From contig NZ_STFX01000028.1 of the NCBI RefSeq assembly GCF_005222915.1, positions 124,001 to 188,000 on the forward strand: a DNA stretch of 64,000 nucleotides, given 5' to 3'. The position numbers and the translations under genes were made by a program. Below, one piece after another: positions 3,021 to 20,802 of this stretch (position 1 is the stretch's first letter; each line of letters opens with the position of its first letter). This DNA is from Rhizobium sp. FKL33. Lineage in GTDB: Bacteria > Pseudomonadota > Alphaproteobacteria > Rhizobiales > Rhizobiaceae. The notes under the pieces are model-generated. The model was given only the letters and a program-made list of their open reading frames with translations, made no database searches and was not told where the DNA came from.

Positions 3021-3888
3021 AGAGCGCCGTCGAGAGATTGCGGATCGCTTCGGCGGTGCGTGGCCCAAATCCGAGCGTCGCCGCTCCGTCCACGCGGACG
3101 ATCGCATGCGCTTTTCCCGCAGGCGTCAGAGCGATGGCCGGATGCGACATGACTTCCTCATCTGACGGCCCGGGACCTGCCCGGCTCATCATCAGGATCA
3201 GATCGGGCGCTGCGGCGATCACGGCTTCGTCATTCATGGGCTTGTAGCCGTGGAACTCCGCCGCGACGTTTGTGGCGCCGGCAAGCTGCAGGATTGCGCC
3301 GGCTGCGGTGTGGTCGCCGGCGGCCATGATCTTGCCGTTCTGCAGAGTCAAGACGAAGAGGACCCGTTTGCGCTTTTCAGCCGGAACATCGGCCGCCGCC
3401 TTCACCGCGGCGTCGATGTCGGCGGAAACCTTGTCGGCAAGCGCCTTGGCCTGATCGTGAACGCCCAATGCATCGCCGACAGTCATGATCTTCCGCGCGA
3501 TAGCGTCGCGATCATAGCCTTCCGGCACCGTGACGACCTGAACCGAGGACTTCTTGATCACCTCGATCGCCGGCTTGGGACCGCTGCCCTCGATCATCAG
3601 GATTGCGGACGGATTGACCGACAAAACGCCTTCCGGGGACAGTTGCCGCATATAGCCGACATCAGGCAGTTTGGTCGCTTCCGCCGGGAAGAAACTGGTC
3701 GAATCGCGCGCGATCAGCTGATCCGACTTGCCGAGCGCATAAACGATTTCGGTGACTGCTCCGCCGATTGAAACAACGCGCGAGGCATCCTTGATTTTCT
3801 CACCGGCGCTCGAAGCCGACGCCAAAGCAAGCGCCACCATTGCGCCGGCAAATCCGACGCGACCTCTTCTCATCAATCTATCCAGCAT
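3010..3888 (-). CDS. hmuT: Periplasmic haemin-binding protein HmuT
   Basis: This 292-residue class III substrate-binding protein would hand haem from the outer membrane receptor to HmuUV. It has an N-terminal signal peptide of about 28 residues (basic start, hydrophobic core, AxA-like end). It then has the family pattern VVSIGGAVTEIVYALG and LPDVGYMRQLSPEG. Tyr79 in that second motif aligns with the tyrosine that ligates haem in ShuT and PhuT (family knowledge). The gene starts 11 bases after hmuS and overlaps hmuU. A second ATG at 3873 is possible. Confidence 0.92.
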   Translation of the reverse strand: MLDRLMRRGRVGFAGAMVALALASASSAGEKIKDASRVVSIGGAVTEIVYALGKSDQLIARDSTSFFPAEATKLPDVGYMRQLSPEGVLSVNPSAILMIEGSGPKPAIEVIKKSSVQVVTVPEGYDRDAIARKIMTVGDALGVHDQAKALADKVSADIDAAVKAAADVPAEKRKRVLFVLTLQNGKIMAAGDHTAAGAILQLAGATNVAAEFHGYKPMNDEAVIAAAPDLILMMSRAGPGPSDEEVMSHPAIALTPAGKAHAIVRVDGAATLGFGPRTAEAIRNLSTALYGG

Positions 3889-3899
3889 GTTCTTATATC

Positions 3900-4952
3900 C
3901 TACGCGGCTTCAGCGGCGTTGGTGGTTGCAAGGCTCTCGACCAGCGAACGCCAATCCGTCATCTCGGCGTTGCCTTCCTTGCGCTTGCCGAAGAACTGGA
4001 TGATCATTTCGCCATCGGCGTCATAGGCTTCGATCGAGGTCACATGGCCATCCTTGGTCGGCTTGCGCACGGCCCAGGCTTCGGCAATGTGATCCATGCG
4101 CAGATGCAGGTGGAAGGTCGGATCCATGACATTGATCCAGGGACCCATCGGCTGGATGTTGGATACCGGACCGGTATGGATCTGGACGATGCCGCGATTG
4201 GCGACGAAGCACATCAGATTGACCTGCGTCTCCACAGACTTCTGGAAGAATTCGGCGATCACGCCGTCGGCCAGTTTCCAGGCGAAGTCTTCGCCTACGG
4301 CCCGGACGGCGGCGCAGCGATCGACGTCGAGCTTGCGCAGCATGCCGAAAAACTCATGCGTATCCGTCAGCTTGCTCCACTGGTCGCGCAGGGCATCTAC
4401 ATCGAAGCCTTCCTTGCGGCCGGACGGCAGTTTGGTGAAGGCTTCGGCGACAAATTCCTGCGACTGATCGTCAAGCCGGAAATCGGCAACGATGCGCTCA
4501 TAGGCCTCCAGATTGGATTCCGGGCGAAGATGGATCTTGTGGATCGCCTCGCCGGACTTGTCGAAATATTGCAGGCTTCTGCGAACCGTATCGCCATCGG
4601 TCTTGGTCACGGCGAAAGCATGCGCCCAGACCCAGTTGAAGATGCGAAGATCGATATTGTCGCCGAGCGTCAGCGACGTGCGTTCGCCGATCTCGATCTT
4701 CTCGTAGACGCCGATCTTTTCATGGACGGCGCTTTCGTTGCGGCTGAGCGCCATGACGACGCCGAGTTCGGGCGCACGCTCGAGCAGACGGTTGGGATGG
4801 GCGTCGATGCGAACGGCCGAAATTCCCACTTCCGCCGCCACCAGCGCCGCCTCGGACACACCGAGATTCTTGGCGATATCCCGCTCGCGCAATTTGGAGT
4901 TTTCCGCCCGGTAAGCGCGGATTTCGGACGGCGTCGGTCCAGTCTTGCTCAT
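3900..4952 (-). CDS. hmuS: Cytoplasmic haem-binding/degrading protein HmuS
   Basis: This 350-residue protein belongs to the HemS/ChuS/HmuS family, which binds incoming haem in the cytoplasm and in some members degrades it to release iron. The duplicated family fold is visible in two related halves. Two family haem-contact residues are kept: Arg103 in DLRIFNW and His199 in TDTHEFF, matching Arg102 and His196 recalled for Yersinia HemS. The ATG has AAGGA 8 bases upstream. It lies between hmuP and hmuT and should be co-transcribed with them. Confidence 0.92.
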   Translation of the reverse strand: MSKTGPTPSEIRAYRAENSKLRERDIAKNLGVSEAALVAAEVGISAVRIDAHPNRLLERAPELGVVMALSRNESAVHEKIGVYEKIEIGERTSLTLGDNIDLRIFNWVWAHAFAVTKTDGDTVRRSLQYFDKSGEAIHKIHLRPESNLEAYERIVADFRLDDQSQEFVAEAFTKLPSGRKEGFDVDALRDQWSKLTDTHEFFGMLRKLDVDRCAAVRAVGEDFAWKLADGVIAEFFQKSVETQVNLMCFVANRGIVQIHTGPVSNIQPMGPWINVMDPTFHLHLRMDHIAEAWAVRKPTKDGHVTSIEAYDADGEMIIQFFGKRKEGNAEMTDWRSLVESLATTNAAEAA

Positions 4953-4988
4953 AGTCCAATCCTTTTTTGACCCCCGCGACGGCGGGAC

Positions 4989-5189
4989 TTACTTGTTAAG
5001 AATGAGTTTGCCCTGTTTGGTGATCTTCATGCGATAGGCCGAGCCGGCGTGATTGATGACGATTTCACGGTCGCCCATGAACAGGGTCTTCGTGTCGTAT
5101 TCCCGCAAATTGGCGTCGAGTGCATCGTCGGACTCAGCGTTCCCGCTCCTCGACGGGTCTCTTTCTCCACTCGGCATGATCGGCCTCAT
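4989..5189 (-). CDS. hmuP: Haemin uptake protein HemP/HmuP
   Basis: This is a 66-residue protein of the HemP family. The C-terminal half has the family pattern, with VINHAGSAYRMKITKQGKLI close to its end. In Bradyrhizobium and Sinorhizobium HmuP is needed for haem receptor expression, acting as a co-activator (family knowledge). The N-terminal 30 residues are variable, so the start could be ATG 5189 or ATG 5177. It is the first gene of the hmu operon, with an IRO box 16 bases upstream. Confidence 0.88.
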   Translation of the reverse strand: MRPIMPSGERDPSRSGNAESDDALDANLREYDTKTLFMGDREIVINHAGSAYRMKITKQGKLILNK

Positions 5190-5204
5190 TATTCAGATCT
5201 TTGT

Positions 5205-5219
5205 TGACTTCCCTAGTCA
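5205..5219. promoter_or_regulatory. RirA-type IRO box between hmuP and tonB
   Basis: A perfect TGA-N9-TCA sits 16 bases before the hmuP start and about 128 bases before tonB. Its flanks (T before, T after) match the box before the haemophore gene. The motif is dyad-symmetric, so it may govern both divergent transcription units. A second dyad, TCAAC and GTTGA spaced by nine bases, lies at 5255-5273 nearer to tonB. Confidence 0.65.
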
Positions 5220-5347
5220 TATTTCATAATCCACGCAATACCAGTGGATCAGAGTCAACTTAAAATTTGTTGATCGCGCGACCGCGATACGGGCGGCGCC
5301 GGAATACGGGCGGAAAATGTTCATCCGCCCCTGACAGGGAGTGGGTG

Positions 5348-6679
5348 ATGACGCAGACAGCCGACAGCGCGACCGTCCATCTCAACTCGCTCCGCTTCAA
5401 GCCCGCAAATTCCAATCAACCGGACCGTTCGATCGTCTCGCATCAGTTCAAGAATGTGCCGCGCTGCTCTTACGCGCGCGATGACGGCATTACGCCCTAT
5501 CTCGCTTCGGAAACCGGCATCGACCAGTTTCCGGCTTCGGCCGTTGGCCTCGAGCCCCTGCATGCGGATATTCCTCATCCGGCTCCCGAACCGGACAAAC
5601 CGGAGACGAACGCCCACCGAAAACTTCTCCGCAGCGGCTTTGCCCTGTCGATCTTTGTTCATGCCTGTTTTGCCGCAGCATTCGGTTTCGGCGTCGCACA
5701 GGCGCCGGACGACGCGCTCATGCAGGGAGAGACGGTGATTTCGCTGATCGTTCAGGGCCATGACTCCGATGTCGATGCGCGCGTCGCCGGCGACGAGAAG
5801 GCGAAAGACCTCGAGGTCGAAGAGCCCGAGCAGGAGATCGTCGAGGAGAAACCGAAGGCGGAACCCGCTCCGGAGCCGAAACCCGTCGAGACGCCGCCGG
5901 TGGAAAAAGCCGCTCCCGAACCGCCGCCCGTGATCCCCGCGACACCGCAACAGGTGCTCAAGGACACGCCAATGCCGGTGTTGGGCGCGCCGCTGCCTGA
6001 GATCCTCACCGCTGCCACGCCCGCAAAGGCGAAGGTCGAGGAAATCGCCAAGCCGATCGTTCAGGAACAGCCCAAGACGATCGAGGAGATCAAGCCCGAG
6101 CCGCCGAAGCCCATCGAGCCGCCCAAGATCGAAACCAAGCCGGTCGAGAAAAAGGCGCCGGAGCCGCCGAAACCGGTGGAAAAAGAGCCTGAGCTCAAGA
6201 AGCCCGATCCCAAGCCCGTGGTCGAGAAGGAGCGGCCGAAGAAGAAGACCGTCAAGAAGACGGTGGCGAAGAAGGAGCAGAAAAAGCGCAAGGGCCAGAA
6301 CGCCAAGCAGGAATATGACGCCGACCGCGGCCGCAGCGACGCCAAGGACAAGGGACAGTCGAGCAAAGACGCATCGCGGGGCGCCTCCAACCGGGAGGTT
6401 GGCAACGCCGCGTCCAGCAATTACAAAGGTCTCGTCCAGAAGAAACTGAACCGGGCGCAGAAGCGCATCCGCGCCCGCGGCGAGGGGAGCCTTGTCCTTT
6501 CGTTCACCATAACAGCGGATGGCGGCGTGTCTGGCGCCCGCATTTCCCGGAGCTCCGGCGACCCGAAACTGGATCAGGCGGCGTTGGCGCTTCTGGATAA
6601 AGCCGCGCCTTTCCCCCCAATTCCAGCGGAAACCGGCCGAAAAAGCTACAAAATGGCTGTGCCGATCGAGTTTCGATGA
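5348..6679 (+). CDS. tonB: TonB energy-transducing protein
   Basis: This 443-residue protein would transmit the inner-membrane proton gradient to outer-membrane receptors for haem and siderophores. It has an unusually long cytoplasmic N-terminus of about 90 residues and one membrane segment (FALSIFVHACFAAAFGFGVA). A long Pro/Glu/Lys-rich periplasmic spacer of about 250 residues follows, then a C-terminal TonB domain (GSLVLSFTITADGGV, ending MAVPIEFR). The start is the ATG at 5348 with AGGGAG 6 bases before it. It diverges from the hmu operon. ExbB and ExbD are not in the window. Confidence 0.9.
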   Translation: MTQTADSATVHLNSLRFKPANSNQPDRSIVSHQFKNVPRCSYARDDGITPYLASETGIDQFPASAVGLEPLHADIPHPAPEPDKPETNAHRKLLRSGFALSIFVHACFAAAFGFGVAQAPDDALMQGETVISLIVQGHDSDVDARVAGDEKAKDLEVEEPEQEIVEEKPKAEPAPEPKPVETPPVEKAAPEPPPVIPATPQQVLKDTPMPVLGAPLPEILTAATPAKAKVEEIAKPIVQEQPKTIEEIKPEPPKPIEPPKIETKPVEKKAPEPPKPVEKEPELKKPDPKPVVEKERPKKKTVKKTVAKKEQKKRKGQNAKQEYDADRGRSDAKDKGQSSKDASRGASNREVGNAASSNYKGLVQKKLNRAQKRIRARGEGSLVLSFTITADGGVSGARISRSSGDPKLDQAALALLDKAAPFPPIPAETGRKSYKMAVPIEFR

Positions 6680-6852
6680 TCGAAATGGCCGAGTTGGTTA
6701 AAGAGACGTGAAATTTAACGAGAGTTTTCGATCAATAGAGCCGAAAGTTCTCTAACTATATGGATTAGCCAGATCTTATATCCTCCCGACTATGGTGTGT
6801 GCCAATCCGGAATGAAAGCCGGAACAACACAATTCCATGGAGGATGTACGGA
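6680..6852. other. Intergenic region with inverted repeats before the carrier-protein operon
   Basis: No gene is seen. A 15-base palindrome (6671-6685) overlaps the tonB stop, and GATCGAAA at 6678-6685 is repeated inverted at 6726-6733, which could make a long-loop hairpin. AT-rich sequence around 6748-6765 may hold the promoter of the following operon, but no convincing -35 and -10 pair was found. GGAGG at 6839-6843 is the ribosome site of the carrier protein. Confidence 0.4.
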
Positions 6853-7104
6853 ATGACCGAGACCATTCGCGAAATTCTGAAGAAGCATGCCAATCTGCCC
6901 GCCGGCGTGGACGACATCGCCGATGGCGCGGATCTTTATGCCGCCGGGCTTTCCTCTTTCGCCTCTGTACAGGTGATGCTTGCGCTCGAAGAAAACTTCG
7001 ACATCGAATTCCCCGACAATCTGCTGAACCGCAAATCTTTCCAGAGCATCGAAGCCATCGCGCGGACGGTGGATTCCATCCTGGACGGCAGAAAGGTGGC
7101 GTGA
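6853..7104 (+). CDS. Stand-alone (amino)acyl carrier protein
   Basis: This 83-residue acidic four-helix carrier would hold an aminoacyl group on a phosphopantetheine arm. The attachment motif reads AGLSSF, where the usual form is GLDSL; Ser35 is the expected modification site and the preceding Asp is Ser34. GGAGG lies 9 bases before this ATG; an ATG at 6844 directly abuts it and is unlikely. The stop overlaps the next start (TGATG). Small carrier proteins beside aaRS-like ligases are the known partners of amino acid:carrier-protein ligases in Bradyrhizobium and Agrobacterium. Its substrate is inferred from the neighbouring ligase. Confidence 0.87.
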   Translation: MTETIREILKKHANLPAGVDDIADGADLYAAGLSSFASVQVMLALEENFDIEFPDNLLNRKSFQSIEAIARTVDSILDGRKVA

Positions 7105-8285
7105 TGAACATGCCGGTCAATCTGTCGGCCGGCAGCCTTGTCGAGCGCGCCCAGCGCGTCGCGGCTGTCGCCAGGGCCCATGCGGCCGAAGTGGACCATG
7201 ACGGTCGCTTTCCGGAGGAAGCCGTCAACGCCATGAAGGCGGAGCGCCTTCTGTCCATCCAGATCCCGACGGAACTCGGCGGCGAAAGCGCGGGAACCGG
7301 CGAGATCACCGAACTGTGCTCGATCATTTCACAGGCTTGCGCGTCCGCAGCCATGGTCTTCGCCATGCATCACATCAAGCTCTCCAGCCTGGTGGAGCAT
7401 GGCATGGAAAGCGACTGGCATCGCGGCTTCATGCGGCGCGTGGTCTCCGAACAACTGCTGCTCGGCTCCGCCACCACCGAAGGCGGCATCGGCGGCAATC
7501 TCCGCAATTCGATCTGCGCGATAGAGGTGGATGGCGACATCTGCCGGCTGGAAAAGGACGCCACGGTCATTTCCTACGCCACGAAGTCGGATGCGATCTT
7601 GATCACCTCGCGCGCTCACAAGGATGCGGCGCCGACCGACCAGGTCATGACCGCCTTCACCAAGGAGCAGTACACGCTCGCCAAGACCCAGGACTGGGAT
7701 ACGCTCGGCATGCGCGGCACCTGCTCGGAAGGCTTCCTGTTCAAGGGCGAAGCGCCCAAGGAGCAGATCTTCCCGAAACCTTTCGCCGAGATTGCGGCGC
7801 AATCGATGCTGGCCAACAGCCATATTCTCTGGAGCGGCGTCTGGTACGGAATCGCCGTGGACGCGGTCAATCGCGCCCAGGCTTTCGTCCGCTCTGCCGC
7901 CCGCAAGCAGCCGGGCGTGGTTCCTCCCGGGGCCATTCGTCTCGCCGAGGTTTCGACCCTGCTGCAGATGATGAAATCCAACGTCGTGGCCGCCATCAAG
8001 GCCTATGAAGAGGCGAAAGCCGATCCCGAAAAGCTCTCTTCGGTCGCTTTCTCCGTGGCGATGAACAATGTCAAGATCGCCTCTTCGGAGTCGGTTCTGA
8101 CCATTATCGACCATGCGATGCTGATCTGCGGCATCCTCGGCTACAAGAATGGCACGCCCTACAGCCTGGGGCGCCACCTTCGCGATGCGCATTCCGCCCG
8201 CCTGATGATCTCCAACGACCGGATCCTCGGCAACACATCCACCATGCTCCTGATCCACAAGCAGGACACGAGCCTACTGGGATAA
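7104..8285 (+). CDS. Acyl-CoA dehydrogenase-like flavoprotein
   Basis: This 393-residue protein has the three-part acyl-CoA dehydrogenase fold. The N-terminal helical domain includes [13 protein letters not shown], a beta domain follows residues 120-230 (including [12 protein letters not shown] and [12 protein letters not shown]), and a C-terminal helical bundle ends it. The usual catalytic Glu of the YEGT segment is not visible; the equivalent end reads [10 protein letters not shown]. Relatives acting on carrier-bound substrates include the prolyl-carrier oxidases of pyrrole antibiotics, and other relatives are flavin N-hydroxylases. I infer oxidation of the carrier-bound aminoacyl group. 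The gene overlaps both neighbours (TGATG, TAATG), which implies translational coupling. Confidence 0.8.
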
Positions 8286-9199
8286 TGACAATGGATATGC
8301 AGGTTTCCTTTCTTGATCGTCTTTTTGAATCCGGACTGCTGATCGACACCGGCGTGGACGGCCTTTACGGCCGATCCGGCGAGTTCGAAGACGTCATCGC
8401 CGCCTTCGAGCGACTGATCGACCGAACCGGCGGCGGCGACGGCGCCGAGGCCATCCGCTTTCCGCCGGGCATGAACCGCGCCTACTTCGAAAAGAGCGGT
8501 TACATGAAGAGCTTCCCTCAGCTCGCCGGCACCGTTCACTCCTTCTGCGGCAACGACCATGACCATCTCGGTCTCCTGCAATGCATGGAGGAAGGCAATG
8601 AATGGACCAAGGAGCAGAAGGCGACCGACATCGCGCTGACGCCGGCGGCCTGCTATCCCCTCTACCCCACCATCGCCAAGCGCGGCCCGATCTCCATGAA
8701 GGGCGGCCTTTACGACCTGCAGTCCTACTGCTTCCGCCACGAGCCCTCCAAGGATCCGGCGCGCCAGCAGCTGTTCCGCATGCGCGAATATGTCTGCATG
8801 GGCACGGAAGCGCATGTGACCGAGTTCCGCCAGACCTGGATGGATCGCGGCGTCGAGATGATGAAGTCCGTCGGGCTCGACGTCGAGATCGACGTCGCCA
8901 ACGACCCGTTCTTCGGCCGCGCCGGCCGGCTGCTCGCCAACAACCAGCGCGACCAGAACCTGAAGTTCGAACTGCTGATCCCGGTGACGTCGCAGACCAA
9001 GAAGACGGCCTGCATGAGCTTCAACTACCATCAGGACGCGTTCGGCTCCAAATGGGGTCTCAACCTCGAAGACGGTTCGGTGGCGCACACCGCCTGCGTC
9101 GGTTTCGGCCTGGAGCGCATCGCGCTCGCGCTCTTTGCCCAGCACGGTCTCGACACCAAGCTGTGGCCGGAGAATGTGCGCAAGGTTCTGTGGGGCTGA
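8285..9199 (+). CDS. Amino acid:[carrier protein] ligase, class II aaRS-like
   Basis: This 304-residue protein is a catalytic core of the atypical seryl-tRNA synthetase type without a tRNA-binding domain. It would adenylate an amino acid and pass it to the phosphopantetheine of the upstream carrier. Motif 2 is seen around [20 protein letters not shown] and motif 3 as GFGLERIAL. Cys123, Glu168 and Cys271 have the same spacing as the zinc ligands I recall for Bradyrhizobium Bll0957 (Cys131, Glu176, Cys279). Studied members use glycine or alanine (family knowledge); the substrate here is unknown. Its start overlaps the dehydrogenase stop. Confidence 0.9.
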
Positions 9200-9203
9200 G
9201 GCG

Positions 9204-10172
9204 ATGGCCGCAGTATTTCCTCATCTCGATCCCCTCGCCTACCGGCCGCATGCCCTGCATTCGGCCGAGCGGGCCTGGCCTGAGACCAACTGCTATGTCG
9301 ATCTTTGGATCGAGGCGCTCCACGCCATGGGCGCCCAGCCCGAGGCCATGCTCGGCTTCACGCTGACCCAGGATTTCGAGGGCGACCAGTTCACCTTCTT
9401 CAAGGTTCCGCTGGAAGACCTCGAAAGCCTCTATGACGTCAGGGTGACGGAACTGGCGATCTTCGACCGGGTCGAAGACCACGTCTCCGAACAGATCGCG
9501 CGCGGTCGTCTCTGCCTGTTGGAAATGGACAGCTACTATATGCCCGATACGCAGGGCGTGGCCTATCGAACCGAACACGGCAAGACGACGATCGCCATCA
9601 ACCGGCTGTCGGAGAAGGACAAGGCGATCGACTACTTCCACAATGGCGGTTTCCACCGCCTCGAGGGCGAGGATTTCGACGGCGTGTTCGGCAAGTTCTA
9701 TCCGCCGGGCTCGCAGCCTTTCCTGCCCTATACGGAATTCGCCAAGCTGCCGGTCCGGCTGCCGGACGCTGCGCATGTTCGGCAGGAGGCGCATCGGCTG
9801 CTCCGGCGGCATATGAAACGCATGCCGGAGGCCAATCCGGTGGCCGCCTTTGCGCGGGTGTTTCCGATGCAGGTCAGCGCGCTCGCCGATCGTCCCTTCG
9901 GGCATTTCCACAAATACGCCTTCAACACGCTTCGGCAGTTGGGTGCGAATTTCGAACTGGCGGCGACGCATTTCGACTGGCTGGCTCCCGGCGGTGATCT
10001 CAAGGACTCCTCGGACGCCGCCATGACCATCGCCAACACCGCCAAGACGGCGCAGTTCCAGCTGGCGCGGGCGCTGACGCGCAAGAAATACGACACGCTG
10101 GGACAGGCGCTTGCGCCCGCAGTGGACGCCTGGGATCACCTTAGGGAAACCATCTCGGCGCATATCAACTGA
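9204..10172 (+). CDS. DUF1839 protein, putative papain-fold aminoacyl transferase
   Basis: This 322-residue protein belongs to the uncharacterised DUF1839 family. I see a BtrH-like layout. Cys30 lies at the start of a helix (ETNCYVDLWIEALHAMG). A conserved strand LLEMDSYYMPDT comes before His125, then KTTIAINRL and the segment IDYFHNGGFHRLEGEDFDG, which supplies Asp143 or Asn147. That pattern fits a Cys-His-Asp/Asn papain-like site. BtrH moves an aminoacyl group from a carrier protein to a sugar amine in butirosin synthesis, so a similar transfer is my inference. The ATG at 9204 follows the ligase stop by 4 bases. Confidence 0.78.
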   Translation: MAAVFPHLDPLAYRPHALHSAERAWPETNCYVDLWIEALHAMGAQPEAMLGFTLTQDFEGDQFTFFKVPLEDLESLYDVRVTELAIFDRVEDHVSEQIARGRLCLLEMDSYYMPDTQGVAYRTEHGKTTIAINRLSEKDKAIDYFHNGGFHRLEGEDFDGVFGKFYPPGSQPFLPYTEFAKLPVRLPDAAHVRQEAHRLLRRHMKRMPEANPVAAFARVFPMQVSALADRPFGHFHKYAFNTLRQLGANFELAATHFDWLAPGGDLKDSSDAAMTIANTAKTAQFQLARALTRKKYDTLGQALAPAVDAWDHLRETISAHIN

Positions 10173-10196
10173 TCCTTAACCATATCGGGAGACATC

Positions 10197-10222
10197 ATGC
10201 CCCGGCGCGACAGCCGGGGCAT
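10197..10222. repeat. Perfect 10-bp inverted repeat at the head of the GH2 gene
   Basis: Bases 10197-10206 and 10213-10222 are exact reverse complements around a 6-base loop, giving a very GC-rich hairpin. Both arms contain an in-frame ATG or CAT. If the GH2 gene starts at 10197 the hairpin would bury its start codon. If it starts at 10242 (AGGGA 5 bases upstream) the hairpin is in the leader and could slow transcription or translation between the carrier genes and the glycan genes. Confidence 0.7.
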
Positions 10223-10241
10223 GACTTTGACAGGGAACGAC

Positions 10242-12713
10242 ATGGGCGGCAGGGCAGTCATTTCGGAGATCCGGCATTCGCTTGCGGGCGAATGGGCGCT
10301 GGTCGTGTCCGACGCCGGCGCCTATGCGACGCCTGCTGACATTCCCGACAAGGCGCGGCAGATCCCCGCCCCTGTGCCCGGAACGGTGGCCGAAGCGCTG
10401 GAAAATGCCGGTCGTTTCGATCGCGCCCATCCCGTCAGTCTCAACGACCGCGATTTCTGGTATCTCGCCGCGCTCGACAGCCAGCCGCCCGGCCCGGCCC
10501 GACTGCTGCTCGACGGACTGGCGACGATCGCCGAAGTCTATGTCAACGGCCGGCTGGTTTTGGAAAGCGTCAGCCAATTCATCGCCCATGACGTTTCGGT
10601 TGTTCTCAAGGGACATGGCCAGGACCAGATCGCCATCTGCTTTCGCGCGCTCAATCCGCGACTGAAGTCAAGCGGGCCCCGCGCCCGTTGGCGGCCGCAG
10701 ATGATCACGCCGCCGGGCATGCGGCTGATCCGCGCCACGGCGCTCGGGCATATGCCCGGCTGGTGCCCTGATGTGGAGGCCGTCGGCCCCTTCCGGCCGA
10801 TCCATCTCGTCCGTTCCGCCGAAAACGAGATCGATGCGCTCAGGCTCTCGGCCGGTCTCGACGATGCAGGCGTGGGCGTTCTCGATGTCAGTTTCCGTTT
10901 CGCCGCCCGCGCCGTCGATCTCCGCATCGCCTGTGGCGGCGTCTCGACGCCGGTGATGATCTCCGCCGAGGGTCTTCTCACCGCACGTCTCGAAATCCCT
11001 GCAGTGAAGCCGTGGATGCCACACACCCATGGCGAGCCCAACCTTTACGGCGTCGATCTCCTGATCAACGGGGCGGCGCATCAGATCGGCCGCGTCGGTT
11101 TTCGCAACATCGCGCTCGATCAAGGCGCTGATGGCAAGGGCTTCGGGGTCGAGATCAACGGCGTCCCGGTCTTCTGCCGCGGGGCCGTCTGGACCAATGC
11201 CGATATCGTCAGGCTTCCGGGCGCCAGGGACGACTATCTTCCATGGCTGCAGAAGGCCCGCGACGCCGGCATGAACATGATCCGCATCGGCGGCACCATG
11301 ACCTATGAGACCCCCGAGTTCTTCGCGCTGTGCGACGAACTCGGCCTGATGGTGTGGCAGGACTTCATGTTCGCCAATTTCGACTATCCGGCTGCCGACC
11401 CCGCCTTTGCCGATCTGGTGCGCAAGGAGGCCGTCGATCTCCTGTCGAGCATTCAGGGATCACCTTCGCTCACCGTCCTTTGCGGCGGCTCGGAGATGTT
11501 CCAGCAGGCGGCCATGCTGGGCATGCCGGAGCGCTTCTGGAGCGGGCCGATCACCGACGAGATCCTGCCGTCGGTTTATGAAGAGCTGCGCCCAGATGTG
11601 ATCTACGCGCCGAATTCGCCCTTCGGCGGCGCCATGCCCTTTTCGCCCAATGAAGGCGTCACCCACTATTACGGTGTCGGGGCCTATTGCCGCCCGCTCG
11701 AAGACGCCCGCCGCGCCGAGGTGCGCTTCTCCGCCGAAAGCCTGGCGTTTGCGCATGTGCCGGAAGCCGAAACGCTGGAAGAGCATCTGCCCGTCATGCC
11801 CGTGCATGATCCGCGCTGGAAGGCGCGGGTGCCGCGCGACCGCGGCGCATCCTGGGATTTCGAGGACATTCGCGATCACTATCTGCAACTCCTCTATAGC
11901 CTCGATCCCATGCGACTGCGCCGCGAGGATGTGGGCCGCTATCTGACCCTGTCGCGCGCGACGACCGTGGAAGTGGTCGAGGCCGCCTATGCCGAATGGC
12001 GCCGCCCCGGCTCGCCGACGTCAGGCGCACTGGTCTGGACGCTGCAGGATCTGCTGCCCGGCCCCGGCTGGGGGGTGATCGACGCGACCGGTCTTGAAAA
12101 ACCGGTCTGGCATGGCCTTCGCCGCGCATTTCGCCCGCTCACGGTTGTGCTGTCGGACGAGGGAACCAGCGGCCTTTACGCCCATGTGATCAATGAAACC
12201 AGCGCGCCCCGTACGCTTACGCTGACGCTGACCTGTCTGCGCGACGGCCAGACGCCTGTCGTCGGCGGCAAGATCGATCTCGACCTTCCGCCCCGGGGAA
12301 CCGCGAGCTTTGCCGCGACAGACCTGTTCGGCGCCTTCTTCGACGCGACCTACGCCTTTCGCTTCGGCCCGCCGGCGCATGACGTCACGATTGCTCAACT
12401 TCTCGATCGTATGACAGGCGAGGAGATCGCTTCGGCCTTCCATTTCCCGCATGGGCGAAACGCGGCCTTGCACAGGTCCACGGTGGCGGCCCGGCTGGCG
12501 CGGGAAGCGGATGAATGGGCGCTGTATCTCTCGGCAGATCGCCTTGCGCAGTCGGTTCATTTCGACCTCGTCGGCTGGCGCGCCTCGGACAACTGGCTGC
12601 ATCTGGCTCCCGGCCAGGAAAAGCGGCTGACGTTGGCGCCCCGGGGCGAGACGCCATCCGGTCTGCCGAGCGGCGCCATTCGGCATCTACAGGGCGGAGA
12701 GATCCGCTTCTGA
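10242..12713 (+). CDS. Glycoside hydrolase family 2 protein, beta-mannosidase-like
   Basis: This is an 823-residue GH2 protein. It has a jelly-roll sugar-binding domain (LAGEWALV to DFWYLAALD, then VYVNGRLV), an immunoglobulin-like domain (IDALRLSAGLDD) and a TIM barrel from about residue 310 (NGVPVFCRGAVWTNAD, FCDELGLMVWQDFMF type). Candidate catalytic residues are Glu418 in CGGSEMF, in place of the GNNE acid/base motif, and Glu499 in FSAESLAF, in place of the SEFG nucleophile. No signal peptide is seen, so it is probably cytoplasmic. It may trim glycan intermediates or act on a modified mannoside. An upstream ATG at 10197 is possible. Confidence 0.82.
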   Translation: MGGRAVISEIRHSLAGEWALVVSDAGAYATPADIPDKARQIPAPVPGTVAEALENAGRFDRAHPVSLNDRDFWYLAALDSQPPGPARLLLDGLATIAEVYVNGRLVLESVSQFIAHDVSVVLKGHGQDQIAICFRALNPRLKSSGPRARWRPQMITPPGMRLIRATALGHMPGWCPDVEAVGPFRPIHLVRSAENEIDALRLSAGLDDAGVGVLDVSFRFAARAVDLRIACGGVSTPVMISAEGLLTARLEIPAVKPWMPHTHGEPNLYGVDLLINGAAHQIGRVGFRNIALDQGADGKGFGVEINGVPVFCRGAVWTNADIVRLPGARDDYLPWLQKARDAGMNMIRIGGTMTYETPEFFALCDELGLMVWQDFMFANFDYPAADPAFADLVRKEAVDLLSSIQGSPSLTVLCGGSEMFQQAAMLGMPERFWSGPITDEILPSVYEELRPDVIYAPNSPFGGAMPFSPNEGVTHYYGVGAYCRPLEDARRAEVRFSAESLAFAHVPEAETLEEHLPVMPVHDPRWKARVPRDRGASWDFEDIRDHYLQLLYSLDPMRLRREDVGRYLTLSRATTVEVVEAAYAEWRRPGSPTSGALVWTLQDLLPGPGWGVIDATGLEKPVWHGLRRAFRPLTVVLSDEGTSGLYAHVINETSAPRTLTLTLTCLRDGQTPVVGGKIDLDLPPRGTASFAATDLFGAFFDATYAFRFGPPAHDVTIAQLLDRMTGEEIASAFHFPHGRNAALHRSTVAARLAREADEWALYLSADRLAQSVHFDLVGWRASDNWLHLAPGQEKRLTLAPRGETPSGLPSGAIRHLQGGEIRF

Positions 12714-12798: not shown

Positions 12799-13863
12799 AT
12801 GAAGAGGAAGACCGGCATGCGCATGATGAGCTTTGCGGCCCTGGCTTTGGCGGCGACCTTCGGCTTTCAGAACACGGCTCTGGCGGCCAAGGGATGTTTT
12901 CGCGGCATCAATATTTCGGGCGCGGAATTCGGTGAAGTGGGCGGCAAGGTCAACAAAGCCTATGTCTGGCCGTCCGACAGGACCGTGTCCTATTTCGCCG
13001 CCAAAGGCTTCGACACTGTGCGCCTGCCCTTCCTGTGGGAACGGCTTCAGCCGAAGCTGATGGGGCCGTTCGATCCGGCTGAAGAAGGCCGGCTTCGGGA
13101 AAGCGTGGAATTGATCAAGTCGCATGGCATGCGCGTCATTCTCGATCCGCACAATTACGCCCGTTACAACGGCAAGCTGATCGGCTCGTCCGAGGTTCCG
13201 CACAAGGCCTTCGCTGATTTCTGGGCCAAGCTCGCCACGCTCTTCGCCAACGACCCCGCCATCTATTTCGGACTGATGAACGAACCGAACAAAATGCCAG
13301 TGGCGCAATGGGTGGAGGCCGCCAACGCCGCAACGCTCGCCATTCGGGTCGAGGCGAAGGCCGGCAACCTCGTGCTTGTGCCCGGAACCGCCTGGACCGG
13401 CGCCCATAGCTGGATGAAGGAGATCGACGGAGAGCCGAACGGCGTGGCGCTGCTCAAATACAAGGACCCGAGCGAGAATTTCGCCTTCGAGGTCCATCAA
13501 TATCTCGACGACGATTTCTCCGGCACCAAGGGCAACTGCTCTCGCGCCGAGGACGCGGTCACAGCGCTCAAAGACTTCACCAAATGGCTGAAGAGCCATG
13601 GCTTCCGCGGCTTTCTGGGTGAGTTTGGCGCTCCCGGCGACGCCGCTTGCGTGGCGGGCCTTCAGGGAATGGTGGACGTGGTCGAGGCCGACCGGGATGT
13701 CTGGACCGGATGGACTTATTGGGCCGCCGGCGACTGGTGGCCCGAAAGCGAACCTCTCAACATCCAGCCCACCCAGCATGGTGATCGCCCGCAACTCGCC
13801 GCGATGACGTCGACCTTGACCGATTTCTCTGCGGAGGGCCGGAATTGCCCCTCGCTCCGATGA
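12799..13863 (+). CDS. Secreted glycoside hydrolase family 5 endoglycanase
   Basis: This is a 354-residue GH5 enzyme (cellulase/mannanase superfamily) with a signal peptide ending about AALA-A at residue 30. The family motifs are present: VRLPFLWERL, ILDPHNYARYN, GLMNEPN with acid/base Glu162, and FLGEFG with nucleophile Glu275. Aromatic residues near WTYWAAGDWW would line the cleft. It overlaps the next glycosyltransferase by 4 bases (ATGA). A periplasmic endoglycanase inside a polysaccharide operon often trims or controls chain length, as in cellulose operons; the substrate is not known here. The 85 bases before it contain no credible gene. Confidence 0.88.
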   Translation: MKRKTGMRMMSFAALALAATFGFQNTALAAKGCFRGINISGAEFGEVGGKVNKAYVWPSDRTVSYFAAKGFDTVRLPFLWERLQPKLMGPFDPAEEGRLRESVELIKSHGMRVILDPHNYARYNGKLIGSSEVPHKAFADFWAKLATLFANDPAIYFGLMNEPNKMPVAQWVEAANAATLAIRVEAKAGNLVLVPGTAWTGAHSWMKEIDGEPNGVALLKYKDPSENFAFEVHQYLDDDFSGTKGNCSRAEDAVTALKDFTKWLKSHGFRGFLGEFGAPGDAACVAGLQGMVDVVEADRDVWTGWTYWAAGDWWPESEPLNIQPTQHGDRPQLAAMTSTLTDFSAEGRNCPSLR

Positions 13864-15035
13864 CCCCGCCCGCCCCTGCACCACGCTCGCTCAAGCCCGC
13901 GCCTGATGGTCGCCGGCTCGTCGTGCATGTCGTCCGTCAGTTCTGGCCCAATCGGGGTGGGCTTGAAGATGTGGTGCTCAATCTTTGCCGCCGCGCAGGG
14001 GATGCCGGCTATCGCATCCGGGTGGTGACGCTCAATTCGCTGTTCAGCGATCCCGCGCGGTCCCTTCCTGAGCGCGAAATGCTCGGCGACATCGAGATCG
14101 TGCGCATTCCATGGCGGGGATCGAGCCGCTACCCGGTCGCGCCGTCGGTGCTCGACCACATCCGCGACGCGGATCTCGTCCATGTGCATGCGATCGACTT
14201 CTTCTTCGACTTCCTCGCGCTGACCAAGGTTTTGCATCGCAAGCCGATGATCGCCACCACCCATGGCGGCTTCTTCCACACCAGGAAGTTTGCCGCCCTC
14301 AAGTCGTTCTGGTTCAAGACGCTGACGCGCTTCTCCGCCAGCCGATACGCCGCTCTGGTGGGCTGCAGCACGTCGGATGTCTCGCAATTCGCGACGATTG
14401 CGCCGGATGTTCGACTGATCGAAAACGGCGTTGATCTCGATAAGTTCGCTGATAAGGCGGCGCGAGAACCGCGCAAGGCGATCGTCACCATCGGTCGTTT
14501 TTCCATCAACAAGCGTCTCGACCGGCTCATCCATATGCTCACGGCGTTGCGCCGTCACGACGCGGCCTGGACACTCGATATCGTCGGGGTGGAGTCCGAT
14601 CTTTCGGCCACGGATCTCGCTGCGCTCGCGCGTGAGGCGGGCGCGGAAACCGGAGTGCGAATCCATGTGGGTTTACCCGAACAAGACGTCGCGCGCGTGA
14701 TTTCGCAATGCGCGCTTTTTGCTTCGGCGTCGGAGTATGAAGGCTTCGGCCTCGTGGCGATCGAAGCGATGAGCGCAGGGCTCACGCCTGTCCTACAGCC
14801 CAATGCGGCCTATTCCACCCTTGCAGGTCATCACGCCGCAATCCGTCTCTGCGATTTCAGCGACGCCGAAACCGCCGCCTCTGTTTTGGAGCAAACCTAT
14901 ACCGCCGCAAAATGCGAGCCGGGCCTGCGGAACGCCCTCATGGATGCCGCCCAGACCTATTCCTGGAGCAGTTCCGCCGCGAAATATCTGGCGGAGTATG
15001 ACGCGGCGATCCTGCGACGGGGAGCGGCTCGATGA
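13860..15035 (+). CDS. Glycosyltransferase family 4
   Basis: This 391-residue GT-B fold retaining glycosyltransferase would add a sugar to a lipid-linked glycan on the cytoplasmic face. The N-terminal domain opens with VVRQFWPNRGGLEDVV. A hinge lies near ENGVDLDKF, and the C-terminal domain has IGRFSINKRLDRLI and the EX7E region SASEYEGFGLVAIEAMSAG. The ATG at 13860 overlaps the GH5 stop (ATGA); a TTG at 13845 is less likely. Its stop overlaps the next gene by 4 bases as well. Donor and acceptor cannot be read from the sequence. Confidence 0.88.
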   Translation: MTPPAPAPRSLKPAPDGRRLVVHVVRQFWPNRGGLEDVVLNLCRRAGDAGYRIRVVTLNSLFSDPARSLPEREMLGDIEIVRIPWRGSSRYPVAPSVLDHIRDADLVHVHAIDFFFDFLALTKVLHRKPMIATTHGGFFHTRKFAALKSFWFKTLTRFSASRYAALVGCSTSDVSQFATIAPDVRLIENGVDLDKFADKAAREPRKAIVTIGRFSINKRLDRLIHMLTALRRHDAAWTLDIVGVESDLSATDLAALAREAGAETGVRIHVGLPEQDVARVISQCALFASASEYEGFGLVAIEAMSAGLTPVLQPNAAYSTLAGHHAAIRLCDFSDAETAASVLEQTYTAAKCEPGLRNALMDAAQTYSWSSSAAKYLAEYDAAILRRGAAR

Positions 15036-16159
15036 CCCGGGTCCTCATTGTCACCGCCCAGCATTTCGCGACCCATCCACGCAAGGTGGACCTTCACTTC
15101 ATGGCGGAGGCCCTGAACGCGCGAGGCGTGGCTGTGGATTTCCTGTCCATGCGCCTGAGTTGGCTGAGCCGGATCACCAAGGACGAACGTTGGGCTTTCG
15201 CCAGCGGCCGACCATCGAATCGCTGGACCGAGATCGGCCCGCACTTGCAGGAATTCATCTGGAAGACGCCGCTTCATCCTATCACCTTCCACCGCAAGGC
15301 GCTCGATGAGGCTCTCACGCCGATTGCACTCTTATACGGACGTTTTCTGCCGGCGGCGGTGAAAACCAGGCTCGGCCAATACAGCCATATTCTGGTGGAG
15401 AGTGGAATTTCGTTGCTGGCGCTTCCCACTCTCCGTCGCCTCGCCCCGCAGGCGAAGGTCATCTATCATGCAGCCGACCGACTAGAGACGATCGGAGCGC
15501 ACCCGGCGGCGGCGGCGACATTGCGCGCACACGCCTCCGCAGTGGATCAGGCGCATGTCATGGCGGACGCCATTCGCGGCGACATTCCCGCCGGCATCGA
15601 CACGATCTTTCTGTCGCATGGCATTTCCAAGGAGAGCTTCGACCGCTCCCTGAAGAGTCCGTATGCCGGTCCGCGCAATGCAGTGAGCGTCGGCGACATG
15701 CTGTTCGACGCCGCCACGATCGAGACGCTGGCCAAGCGTTTTCCCGACTGGACCTTTCACCTCTTCGGCCGCCGTGCGACCCTGGATCAGCCGACTGCCA
15801 ATGTTAGGATCCATGGCGAGACGCCTTTCGAGACGGTCGCCGCATACATCAAATACGCCGATGTCGGCATCGCCCCCTATCTACCCAAAGCCGACGCCGA
15901 TTATCTCAGCCAGTCCAGCCTCAAGATGATTCAATACACTTATTGCAAACTCCCCATCGTCGCGCCCCGCTTCGCCGCCGCCGGGCGGCAGCATGTGCTG
16001 GCCTATGATCCTGGACATGCCGACAGCATCGCTGCAGCTTTCTCGGCTGCGACCACCTTCGACCGCGAGACGATCGACATCTCCGGCGTGCTGACCTGGG
16101 ACGAGAAGACCGCGCGCCTCTTTGGCCTTTCCGAAAATTCAAAGGACCGGGAGATCTGA
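15032..16159 (+). CDS. GumK-like glycosyltransferase (GT70)
   Basis: This 375-residue protein resembles Xanthomonas GumK, the membrane-associated glucuronosyltransferase of xanthan synthesis. Matching stretches are FATHPRKVDLHFMAEAL, FLSMRLSWLSRITKDER, ILVESGISLLALPTL, VSVGDMLFDA and YIKYADVGIAPY. Asp149 in VIYHAADRLETI aligns with the catalytic Asp157 of GumK. It probably adds a uronic acid or similar sugar to a polyprenyl-linked acceptor. The donor is inferred from the family only. It overlaps the preceding GT4 gene and sits 2 bases before the flippase fusion. Confidence 0.82.
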   Translation: MTRVLIVTAQHFATHPRKVDLHFMAEALNARGVAVDFLSMRLSWLSRITKDERWAFASGRPSNRWTEIGPHLQEFIWKTPLHPITFHRKALDEALTPIALLYGRFLPAAVKTRLGQYSHILVESGISLLALPTLRRLAPQAKVIYHAADRLETIGAHPAAAATLRAHASAVDQAHVMADAIRGDIPAGIDTIFLSHGISKESFDRSLKSPYAGPRNAVSVGDMLFDAATIETLAKRFPDWTFHLFGRRATLDQPTANVRIHGETPFETVAAYIKYADVGIAPYLPKADADYLSQSSLKMIQYTYCKLPIVAPRFAAAGRQHVLAYDPGHADSIAAAFSAATTFDRETIDISGVLTWDEKTARLFGLSENSKDREI

Positions 16160-16161: not shown

Positions 16162-19100
16162 ATGGCCAAGGGAGTTCTCGTCAATTCAGCCCTGAACGCT
16201 GCAGCCGGCATGCTGCTCCTGGTGACCGGCTTTGCCTGCTCGATCATCGCTGCCCGCCTGCTCGGCCCCGAAGCCAATGGGGTGATCGCCTTTTCGCTGT
16301 GGTTCGCCACCACCGGCGCTCTCGTCGCCGAACTCGGCACGGGCGTCCTCCTGATGCGCATGCTGCCTAAGCTCCGGCTGGAGGGTTATGACGAAAAGCG
16401 GCGGCGCGGTTTTGCCGCGCTTTTGCTCACGCCGACGCTGATCTCGACCGCCGTATTGGCTGTACTCTACGCTCTGATATTTCTCGGGTCGGAGGAGTTG
16501 CACTGGATCGATACGGGCCCTGAAGTCGCCCTTCTGACCGGCGGCTTGTTCATCGTTCAGTCGATCGGCGCATTCACCAAGAATTATCTGATCGGAGAGC
16601 AGAGGCTCGACGCTTTCTTCAAGCTGACTGTCGCTGCGTCCGTGGTTCAATTGACCACCGTAGGCGCGGGCGCGGTCTTCTACGGCGTGGAGGGCGCGCT
16701 TCTGGGCTATGCGGCCGGACAGACGGTGATGTTTCTCTACACGCTCACGCTGATGTTCGAGCGCAGGGACTTTTGCGACACGCCGGCGAAATTCCTGGTG
16801 TCGTCGTCGCTTGCCTTGTCGGCAGGCTATGTCATCGACTCGGTTTTCCTCAATCGCATCGAAATCCTGTTCCTGCAACAGTTCTGGGATGTGAGGATGG
16901 TCGGCTTCTATGCCGTCAGTCTGTCGCTCGCCAATCTGGCGTTGCAACTGCCCGTGCAGCTAACCGGCAGCCTGTTGCCGTATTACGCAGCGCAACGTCA
17001 AACAAGCAACGGCGGACAAATGAGCGCCGATGTCTTTACGTCGGTCATCCGGGCGCTCTTCTATCTCACCCTCCCAATGAGTTTTGGACTTGCCGGGATC
17101 GCCACGCCGCTTGTAAGTTCGGTATTCGGCGAAGACTTCGCTCCCGCCGGGCCAATGGTGGCGTTGATTGCGCTTTCCGCGCCGGCCTATGTGCTCATGC
17201 AGATCCTGACGCAATATCTCTTCTCGCTCGATATGATGAAGAGCCGTTTGTTCGCGGGACTGATCGGCAGCGCTGTGATCCTCATCGGTTGTTTCATTGC
17301 GGTGCCCCATTTCGGCGGAGAAGGCGCAGCCGGCGCGCGCCTGCTGGCCTTTACTCTGATGTGCATGGCGATGATCCGCATGACGGGCTTCGGCAGGAAC
17401 CTGCATAGCCTGTACGGCGTGCTTGCCAAGGTGACCATGGCCTCGGCGCTGGTGGGAGGTGCGGCATTCGCCGTATCCGATTTCGTGCCGGGCCTTGCTG
17501 GCCTTGCGCTCGCCATTGCCATTGGCGTTGTCGTCTATCCTGCTGCTCTCCGCTGGACGCAGGCTATTCCGCCCGAGGACGGCGCGATGTTGAGAGCGCT
17601 TTCTGGTCGTGCGCCTGGCAAGACCGGCCAGATGGTTGGAAAAATCGTGCGGTGGGTTGCGCCGCGCACTGTGGACGAATCCTCGCGCTCGCCAAACCTT
17701 GATGCGGATGCGCCAGGCGCTGGTCAGAAGGCAGGATATCCCGTGACCTTCGATGGAACAGCAGGGCTTTACATGGCTGAAGGCAACGGCGTGGTTCGAC
17801 GAGACGCTGCGGTTCTTCTCTTGCCGCCCTGGGGATTTGAGGAGCTGTGCAGTCGAAAATTCTACCGCATCCTCGCCGAAGAACTCTCGGACGCCGGCCT
17901 TCCAAGCCTTCGCTTCGATTATCCGGGCACGGGCGACTCAAGCGATCTCGACGACAATGCCGGCATGGAAGCTTGGGAAGCCTCGGTTATAAAAGCGGCG
18001 GCAAAGCTGCGGGCGTTGACTGGTCTCGACCGTATCATCCTGATCGGCCAGGGGCCGGGCGCAGCGCTCGCCCAGCATCTGGCCGGGCGGCTCGGCGAGA
18101 TCGGCGGGATCGTGATGCTCGCGCCGATGCTGAGCGGGCGTCTCTATTTGCGTGAGGTCGCACTCATGTCGACGGCAGTCGATCAGTCGCTCGGTCTCAG
18201 GGAAGATCAGAGAGACAAGACGACGGTCAACATTGCCGGGTTCCGGCTGTCCGAGAGCATCGCGTCCGCCTTGAAGTCGATGAATCTCGGGGTTGCCGCG
18301 CAGGCTGCAGCGCCGCATTACCTGCTTCTCTCCAAGCCCTCCTCCGGTGCGGAAGCGCAAATGGGAGACGTTTTGCGCCAGCAGGGCGCGTCGGTCGATG
18401 TCGAGGCATTCACCGGTTACGAGGGGCTGGTCGCCAATCCGACAATTCAGGTTATGCCGCTTCAGACGGTGGCCCGGATCGTGGACTGGGCGCTCGAAAA
18501 GACTGGGCCGTCTACTCAGCGCAGCGAACTTCCGACGGCGAATGAACGAATCGAGACGCAGGATTACATCGAGACGGGCGTGCGCTTCGGCGACGGCGGT
18601 CGGCTGCATGGAATCGTCTGCACCCCCACAAGCAGCGCCTCAGGACTTCGCGTGCTGATCCTCACCACCGCTTACGACCGCGCCGCTGGCTGGGGGAGAA
18701 GCGGAACGGAACTGGCGCGCCACCTGGCAAAGACCGGCGTGGCCTCACTCCGCTTCGACGCCGCCAATGTCGGCGACAGCCCGCCCATCGCCGGCACAGG
18801 GGCCCAAGTCCTCTATTCCCCAGATCAGATATCTGATGCGCAAAGCGCGATCGACCTCCTCGAAGCCCACCTTGGGCGGGGACCGCTCATTCTCTTCGGC
18901 CGCTGTAGCGGCGCCTATGTGGCCCTGAGGACCGCCGCCGCCGATCCGCGCGTCAACGCTTTCATGGCGATCAATCCCTACATCTTTTACTGGGACACGA
19001 CCAAGCCGGTGGATGGCGCATTGACCTTCATGCCGCGCAGCCTCGATGATTACGGGCAACGCCTGGCGCAATTGGGAACATTCAAACGGCTGCTCAAGGG

Positions 19101-19467
19101 AGAGGTAGACGTGCCGGCGGCGGCGCGGAACATTTCACTGGCGCTCTATCGCCGTCTGATGGCTAAAATGAAACCGGTGCTGCGCTTCATAGACTCCGCC
19201 GGTCCTGTGCACCATGAAACCGTAGAGATGTTCCGGACCTACGCGCTGCGCGAGACCGACGTGCGGCTCGCCTATAGCGAAGGGGATGTGGGTTTGGATG
19301 CTTTGCGCGACCATTTCGGCGACACCGGCGAGAAGCTCTCGGGCTTTGCAAATGTGAAACTGGTGATGATCCCGGATGCAGATCACAATCTCACGCCTCC
19401 GGCCGCAAAGGATCAGGCCATGGCGGAAATGATGGAACTGGTCCGGCTTCACACAACGCAGAAATGA
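16162..19467 (+). CDS. Wzx-type flippase fused to two alpha/beta-hydrolase domains
   Basis: This 1101-residue protein has three parts. Residues 1-470 form a polysaccharide flippase of the Wzx/MATE superfamily with 12-14 hydrophobic segments (starting LNAAAGMLLLVTGFACSII). A linker leads to a first alpha/beta hydrolase at about 525-775, in which the nucleophile elbow is GQGPG at 629-633, with Gly where Ser is expected. A second hydrolase at about 800-1101 has elbow GRCSG at 913-917, with Cys at the nucleophile position, and His1075 in PDADHNLTPP. The frame is continuous and clean. The first hydrolase looks inactive; the second might be a Cys acyltransferase or esterase acting on the exported glycan. 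Confidence 0.85.
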   Translation: MAKGVLVNSALNAAAGMLLLVTGFACSIIAARLLGPEANGVIAFSLWFATTGALVAELGTGVLLMRMLPKLRLEGYDEKRRRGFAALLLTPTLISTAVLAVLYALIFLGSEELHWIDTGPEVALLTGGLFIVQSIGAFTKNYLIGEQRLDAFFKLTVAASVVQLTTVGAGAVFYGVEGALLGYAAGQTVMFLYTLTLMFERRDFCDTPAKFLVSSSLALSAGYVIDSVFLNRIEILFLQQFWDVRMVGFYAVSLSLANLALQLPVQLTGSLLPYYAAQRQTSNGGQMSADVFTSVIRALFYLTLPMSFGLAGIATPLVSSVFGEDFAPAGPMVALIALSAPAYVLMQILTQYLFSLDMMKSRLFAGLIGSAVILIGCFIAVPHFGGEGAAGARLLAFTLMCMAMIRMTGFGRNLHSLYGVLAKVTMASALVGGAAFAVSDFVPGLAGLALAIAIGVVVYPAALRWTQAIPPEDGAMLRALSGRAPGKTGQMVGKIVRWVAPRTVDESSRSPNLDADAPGAGQKAGYPVTFDGTAGLYMAEGNGVVRRDAAVLLLPPWGFEELCSRKFYRILAEELSDAGLPSLRFDYPGTGDSSDLDDNAGMEAWEASVIKAAAKLRALTGLDRIILIGQGPGAALAQHLAGRLGEIGGIVMLAPMLSGRLYLREVALMSTAVDQSLGLREDQRDKTTVNIAGFRLSESIASALKSMNLGVAAQAAAPHYLLLSKPSSGAEAQMGDVLRQQGASVDVEAFTGYEGLVANPTIQVMPLQTVARIVDWALEKTGPSTQRSELPTANERIETQDYIETGVRFGDGGRLHGIVCTPTSSASGLRVLILTTAYDRAAGWGRSGTELARHLAKTGVASLRFDAANVGDSPPIAGTGAQVLYSPDQISDAQSAIDLLEAHLGRGPLILFGRCSGAYVALRTAAADPRVNAFMAINPYIFYWDTTKPVDGALTFMPRSLDDYGQRLAQLGTFKRLLKGEVDVPAAARNISLALYRRLMAKMKPVLRFIDSAGPVHHETVEMFRTYALRETDVRLAYSEGDVGLDALRDHFGDTGEKLSGFANVKLVMIPDADHNLTPPAAKDQAMAEMMELVRLHTTQK

Positions 19468-20672: not shown

Positions 20673-20765
20673 GTTTGAAAACCATGCGCGTTAGCCGCGC
20701 ATCACCACGTGGATTGAGGAACCGCCTCCGACCGGACCGAATCCGGCGGGAAGCGGATTTGAAGA

Positions 20766-20790
20766 GGCCTGCAAGCGAGGCTTGCAGGCC
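20766..20790 (-). terminator. Intergenic hairpin between dnaK and dnaJ
   Basis: A perfect 10-bp stem (20766-20775 with 20781-20790) with a 5-base loop lies 13 bases after the dnaK stop. The following bases on the minus strand are only mildly T-rich (TCTTCAAAT). It may be a partial terminator or an RNA stabiliser that lets dnaJ be expressed below dnaK. Confidence 0.55.
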
Positions 20791-20802
20791 GGCATTTCAG
20801 AT

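Follow-up and report, generated by a model that had tools for sequence, protein, structure and literature searches.

The window analyzed here is a 64,000-nucleotide stretch of Rhizobium sp. FKL33 (NZ_STFX01000028.1, positions 124,001–188,000; coordinates are those of the window), in which genes for an aminoacyl carrier protein, a flavoprotein, an amino acid:[carrier protein] ligase, a DUF1839 protein and a GH2 glycosidase form a block. The first-pass annotation had described the first four as a tightly coupled unit with overlapping stops and starts. These four genes are real, lie on the forward strand at the positions assigned to them (Table 1), and belong to the families named, as confirmed by PRK07081, PRK07080, PF08893, and the Pfam acyl-CoA dehydrogenase domains. 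The overlaps are present between carrier and flavoprotein (TGATG at 7102–7106) and between flavoprotein and ligase (TAATG at 8283–8287, involving the upstream of two candidate ligase starts), but ligase stop and DUF1839 start are separated by a 4-base gap. The unit also extends past 10172, as the GH2 gene (to 12713) and a double alpha/beta hydrolase (17722–19464) belong with it; instead of four genes there are five adjacent ones and a constant sixth partner (26/26 genomes, see below).

Table 1 Genes of the block and neighbouring genes in the window.
Feature	Positions	Strand	Basis
Aminoacyl carrier protein, 83 residues, Atu2571 type	6853..7104	+	PRK07081, PDB matches, Ser35
Acyl-CoA-dehydrogenase-like flavoprotein without catalytic glutamates	7104..8285	+	Pfam, residue alignment, AlphaFold2 fold
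Amino acid:[carrier protein] ligase, limited to a seryl-tRNA-synthetase-like catalytic core	8285 or 8291..9199	+	PRK07080
DUF1839, putative carrier-dependent aminoacyltransferase of CcbD fold	9204..10172	+	Pfam, Cys30, His125
GH2 beta-mannosidase-like glycosidase, fifth block gene	10197 or 10242..12713	+	PF22666, PF17753
GH5 cellulase-family protein, facultative neighbour	12799..13863	+	PF00150; signal-like N-terminus (by eye)
GT4 glycosyltransferase, neighbour	13845..15035	+	PF00534, PF13439
GumK-like glycosyltransferase, facultative neighbour	15032..16159	+	PF22059 180.5 bits
Wzx-type flippase, in-frame fusion with double hydrolase	16162..17721	+	PF13440 43.5 bits, cut-off 23
Double alpha/beta hydrolase related to exosortase-A hydrolases 2 and 1, in that order; C-terminal fusion part, sixth partner	17722..19464	+	

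Lack of co-occurrence in other genomes had been named beforehand as the outcome that would speak against such a unit; the families do occur together. In the order sample of 199 genomes, 40 have the ligase, 37 the carrier, and 27 DUF1839 (one match treated as spurious), and carrier, flavoprotein, ligase, DUF1839, and GH2 adjoin on one strand in 26/26 DUF1839-bearing genomes (25 fetched loci and the window), so that the block cannot be put down to chance. Two DUF1839 matches were dropped as spurious, one in G040 (55 residues, interrupted by a stop; E 7e-4) and one in G215 (86 residues, E 3.6e-5). A species collection held at least 534 confirmed DUF1839 loci, the best 80 of which were examined: flavoprotein, ligase, DUF1839, and GH2 are present in 80/80, and the block is complete in 79, with a single order and strand in all 79; the remaining locus (L133) is cut by the contig start, and the flavoprotein of L121 is split over two frames. 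Since these best 80 loci are close relatives, more weight is given to the order sample. The rhizobial setting given at first proved too narrow, as Azospirillum, Mycetohabitans, and Caballeronia also carry the block. DUF1839 was found in 12/299 genomes of a phylum sample (13 places) and in 4/229 genomes, one of them treated as spurious, of a sample of the class of genome G425; of seven places fetched outside the order sample (G429 left out), six hold complete blocks (L158, L159, L161, L162, L163, and L169) and L168 is complete except for the carrier, cut by the contig end.

The carrier lies above the curated cut-off of NCBIfam PRK07081 (125.2 bits vs. 72); its best PDB matches are 4h2w_C, a carrier crystallized with a Bll0957-type ligase, and 2jq4 (Atu2571), and Ser35, the candidate phosphopantetheine site, is kept in 105/105 sequences. 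The ligase, with one match in the source genome, exceeds the curated cut-off of NCBIfam PRK07080 (507.6 bits vs. 357) and has the Bll0957-type structures 4h2w and 3mey as best solved relatives; it is 302 residues long, and its alignment with seryl-tRNA synthetase is confined to residues 312–503 of 518 (class II core, without the tRNA-binding domain). C121, E166, and C269, which we take to be the zinc ligands by Bll0957 numbering, are intact in 116/116 sequences. Ligases of this class load glycine or alanine. In a FastTree phylogeny of 58 ligases, including every fourth of the 80 named loci, a DUF1839-linked clade (support 0.93) is separated from a Bll0957-like clade (0.96); four weak matches (G104, G037, G032, and G029) were left out of the two clades. 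Bll0957-like ligases, with 45–48% identity, occur in ten further genomes of the order sample and have the flavoprotein adjoining in 10/10; neither DUF1839 nor GH2 was found in the fetched stretches of these ten loci. Downstream of the ligase in seven of them (L066–L072) lies a related protein of about 290 residues (291–295 in four loci, longer frames in three), which is GNAT-like by one sub-threshold Pfam match among three proteins; it may conceivably replace DUF1839, but this is not claimed.

For the flavoprotein, the N- and C-terminal acyl-CoA dehydrogenase domains of Pfam score over the cut-off and the middle domain under it. A catalytic acyl-CoA dehydrogenase is expected to have a glutamate at the position of residue 376 or 255 of medium-chain acyl-CoA dehydrogenase (MCAD); the flavoprotein has it at neither, with Ile369 at the first site in 114/115 sequences (one gap) and Ser or Ala at the alternative site, 239, in 115/115. 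Both sites were placed by ungapped extension from conserved motifs, the MCAD motif being the one we presume for this enzyme. Moreover, glycine has no beta carbon, so that ordinary alpha,beta-dehydrogenation could not act on a glycyl group. The AlphaFold2 model (predicted local distance difference test 82.7) gives DszC as top fold score, tied with dehydrogenases. We propose that the flavoprotein acts on the aminoacyl group while this is bound to the carrier, as an oxidase or monooxygenase.

DUF1839 scores far over the Pfam gathering score of PF08893 (425.9 bits vs. 22.5). Its predicted structure matches CcbD over the full length, with 10–12% identity in structural alignments, and shares the fold of CtaG and AziU2/U3 over 272–289 residues. 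The catalytic triad of CcbD is Cys-His-Glu; Cys30 and His125 of DUF1839, kept in 106/106 sequences (Cys30 also in 33/34 of a wider set), were matched to it by spacing and not by superposed residues. CcbD transfers the aminoacyl group of its carrier onto an amino sugar and accepts several amines [according to the accessible part of PMC12945683]. From the modelled structure, DUF1839 is proposed to be a carrier-dependent aminoacyltransferase of the CcbD fold. The first-pass annotation had likened the genes to butirosin side-chain assembly (load, modify, transfer). This logic is strengthened by the full-length match to CcbD, but butirosin as the closest model was dropped for CcbD, because BtrH_N (PF14399) reaches 12.8 against a cut-off of 29.7 and the hhalign probability with BtrH relatives is 2.7% (0.1–0.2% for four unrelated controls).

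The GH2 protein exceeds the cut-offs of PF22666 (40.5 bits vs. 27) and PF17753 (25.3 bits vs. 22.6); E418 and E499 (counting from the start at 10242), presumably catalytic by their motifs, are intact in 106/106 sequences, and no signal peptide was seen by eye. The sixth partner is part of a fused gene (16162–19467) that encodes a flippase followed, in its second half, by two alpha/beta hydrolase domains; similar fusions were found in 8 of the best 80 named loci. The double hydrolase stays below the cut-offs of both related families, TIGR03101 (76.7 bits, cut-off 202.75) and TIGR03100 (64.1, cut-off 168.45). Searched alone (E <= 1e-15) in the 199 genomes of the order, it gave a match in every one of the 26 genomes with the block and in 0/173 others, corresponding to 14/100 genera; Fisher p for its co-occurrence with the block is 4e-33 by genome and 2e-17 by genus, both uncorrected for kinship. 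Two genomes of genus g85 have block and hydrolase and a third has neither. The hydrolase lies inside the fetched stretch in 45 of the best 80 named loci and on another contig than the block in four genomes (G187, G010, G027, and G137). Of seven fetched loci in which the hydrolase is separate from the block, six (all but L196) had a total of 20 neighbours scanned; Wzz, GH10, and a flippase are near the hydrolase in L190, two glycosyltransferases, a MatE protein, and GH5 in L194, GH5 and a GINT-like transferase in L195, and a WecG transferase in L193. GH5 was found in 8/26 block-bearing genomes vs. 2/26 without the block and a GumK-like enzyme in 3/26 vs. 0/26, the negative genomes having been picked by hand.

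In a plasmid collection, DUF1839 was present in 59/72,556 records. The full block is found in 8 of the 11 fetched plasmid stretches; among the others, L179 is without GH2, L177 is a relic, and L175 has GH2 in several frames. This last gene, from a Rhizobium acidisoli plasmid (L175:11079–13500), looks broken. On plasmids of two R. gallicum strains, M101 and R602sp (L173:604–15500 and L176), and of R. acidisoli FH23 (L175) the block lies behind nifD, nifK, nifN, nifX, and fdxB on the same strand and is also preceded by an annotated exopolysaccharide production repressor gene (SyrA family, checked in M101 alone); upstream of the carrier, a simple scan of these three plasmids gave no site for sigma-54 or NifA. 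An acyl carrier protein, RHLc6550, which may or may not be the block carrier, is up in bacteroids [accessible part of PMC6421345].

Taken together, the block probably encodes a dedicated aminoacyl-transfer pathway, in which an amino acid is loaded, oxidized, and transferred to a sugar, the product entering a surface polysaccharide; the acceptor sugar is most likely destined for the cell surface. Sequence and modelled structure show the identity of the genes, their conservation and co-occurrence, the DUF1839 fold, the absence of the flavoprotein glutamate, and intact residues in ligase and GH2; for the amino acid, the type of oxidation, the acceptor, the role of the hydrolase, and the order of the last three steps we infer the following. 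The ligase, related to aminoacyl-tRNA synthetases, would adenylate a small amino acid (glycine or alanine) and load it on the carrier phosphopantetheine; the flavoprotein would oxidize the loaded group, still on the carrier, at its N or C-alpha in a monooxygenase-like manner; DUF1839, as a papain-type transferase of CcbD/CtaG fold, would take the group onto Cys30 and transfer it to a cytoplasmic or lipid-linked sugar, at an amine (or hydroxyl); the GH2 enzyme may prepare or trim the acceptor glycoside; and the product would enter surface polysaccharide via the Wzx flippase, at which stage the double hydrolase may serve acyl transfer, release, or proofreading. The first-pass annotation was thus right in kind, and is corrected in gene set, nearest analogue, and priority.

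Several observations weigh against this pathway. AziU2/U3 act in aziridine formation and not in intermolecular amide formation, so that the fold does not fix the chemistry of DUF1839. Its third catalytic residue is ambiguous, between the C(T/S)H residues proposed as catalytic in the accessible part of PMC10318531 and the Cys-His-Glu of CcbD, and its profile alignment with BtrH relatives is weak, as given above. In genome G431 the DUF1839 of the block (L159:9976) has Arg for the catalytic Cys; a second copy (L160:88–1299) keeps the Cys, and no ligase, flavoprotein, or carrier gene adjoins it, even though the contig extends in that direction (the GH2 side is cut off; a double hydrolase lies about 4 kb away). 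For the flavoprotein, fold scores of the model are tied between monooxygenases and dehydrogenases, and the family profile ranks a dehydrogenase first, unlike the single sequence, which ranks a nitrososynthase-type enzyme first. Glycosyltransferases are facultative near the block, the six proteins scanned around the hydrolase in L191 and L192 included no polysaccharide gene, and the hydrolase is absent from 9/11 fetched plasmid stretches (present in 2/11).

Several plasmid blocks are also without polysaccharide genes, which fits a small diffusible product as well. That the block makes such an aminoacyl glycoside (signal, toxin, or siderophore-like), with GH2 releasing or building the sugar part, is the alternative that survives best, although we consider it rather unlikely. 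CtaG and AziU3, which belong to natural-product pathways, count in its favour. On conjugative plasmids the five genes are not accompanied by polysaccharide genes, and on the three bean-rhizobium plasmids they come immediately after nif genes; CcbD is an enzyme of antibiotic biosynthesis [accessible part of PMC12945683]. The tracking of the block by the double hydrolase (26/26 vs. 0/173), and its fusion to a Wzx flippase or position amid polysaccharide genes in several genomes, are at odds with a small product, as is the clustering of 41 loci, in which no exporter or resistance family was as constant as the block genes. Aminoacyl-lipids occur in rhizobia, which would suit transfer to an acceptor that is not a sugar but an amine or lipid (polyamine, aminolipid), with GH2 and hydrolases acting separately. 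This is improbable, since a GH2 with invariant candidate catalytic residues adjoins DUF1839 in 26/26 genomes, even if the acceptance of several amines by CcbD [PMC12945683, as above] is compatible with it. Ordinary acyl-CoA dehydrogenation beside an unrelated carrier ligase, neighbours by operon accident, agrees with the Pfam label of the flavoprotein but can scarcely be upheld when adjacency is kept across classes, the flavoprotein accompanies Bll0957-type ligases in 10/10, and the catalytic glutamate is missing at both known places.

A wider and more tentative picture, for which doubt still outweighs confidence, is that of a widespread, partly plasmid-borne six-gene machine with a loader derived from an aminoacyl-tRNA synthetase, which would form an oxidized aminoacyl amide on a sugar of a surface glycan (or glycoconjugate), the bond being lincosamide-like, and which on the bean symbiosis plasmids would act during nitrogen fixation. 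In this picture exosortase-A loci follow the same logic of carrier and hydrolase pair with another ligase in place, so that amino acids delivered by carriers may be a general, overlooked decoration of bacterial polysaccharides. Carrier ligases of this type have been known biochemically since 2010, and the literature searched gave no settled biological role for them; the question is made directly testable by the constant sixth gene, by a transferase class whose mechanism has been solved, and by the likely acceptor type, a sugar. The pathway, if true, would add to the known chemical modifications of sugars on bacterial surfaces a new one, possibly active at the root or in nodules.

Upstream of the block (1911–6679) lie haem uptake-like genes (permease, binding protein, HmuS) and TonB, judged by eye, and the right-hand border of the cluster is formed by dnaJ and dnaK on the opposite strand (19527–22881, by eye). 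No sigma-70-like promoter was found in 6400–10500 of the window.

Among known systems, closthioamide CtaG and azinomycin AziU2/U3 have the fold in common with DUF1839; they handle other acyl groups by other chemistry and are not sugar pathways. Butirosin BtrH is of the same papain-like, carrier-dependent acyltransferase class [accessible part of PMC10318531], but its sequence link to DUF1839 is sub-threshold. CcbD, the condensing enzyme of the lincosamide celesticetin, resembles DUF1839 in the full-length fold, in Cys and His, in the gene for an aminoacyl carrier, which is adjacent here, and, by spacing only, in basic C-terminal residues similar to the carrier contact of CcbD; it differs in its loader, a non-ribosomal peptide synthetase adenylation enzyme instead of one resembling an aminoacyl-tRNA synthetase, and the flavoprotein, GH2, and hydrolases are extra here. 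One exosortase-A (PEP-CTERM) locus (L199:4238–8951) has an AMP-forming ligase (TIGR03098), a carrier weakly similar to PRK07081, hydrolase 2, hydrolase 1, and an acyltransferase; it shares carrier, adenylating ligase, and homologous hydrolases in the same order with the window, but its ligase is from another superfamily and the window hydrolases lie below the family cut-offs. This shared carrier-hydrolase logic was not stated in the literature among the matches listed, nor was experimental follow-up on DUF1839, the carrier ligase, the Atu genes, or aminoacylated exopolysaccharide found among them, few subscription journals being covered. The nearest precedent is the Atu2571–Atu2574 system (Mocibob et al. 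2010, as described in the accessible part of PMC2922099), with a related carrier (Atu2571), the related ligase class, the same neighbours (redox enzyme, uncharacterized protein, glycosidase), and the same predicted logic of amino acid to surface amino sugar. The fate of the aminoacyl group, thought undescribed in the first-pass annotation, had in fact been predicted there in 2010: according to a note added in proof, Atu2574 would join it by an amide bond to an amino sugar of the cell surface, and the redox enzyme would modify it. New here, beyond that system, are the constant double hydrolase as sixth gene, the structural identity of the transferase as CcbD fold, the residue evidence for the flavoprotein, the exosortase-A parallel, and the plasmid distribution, with nif-linked blocks on three bean-rhizobium plasmids.

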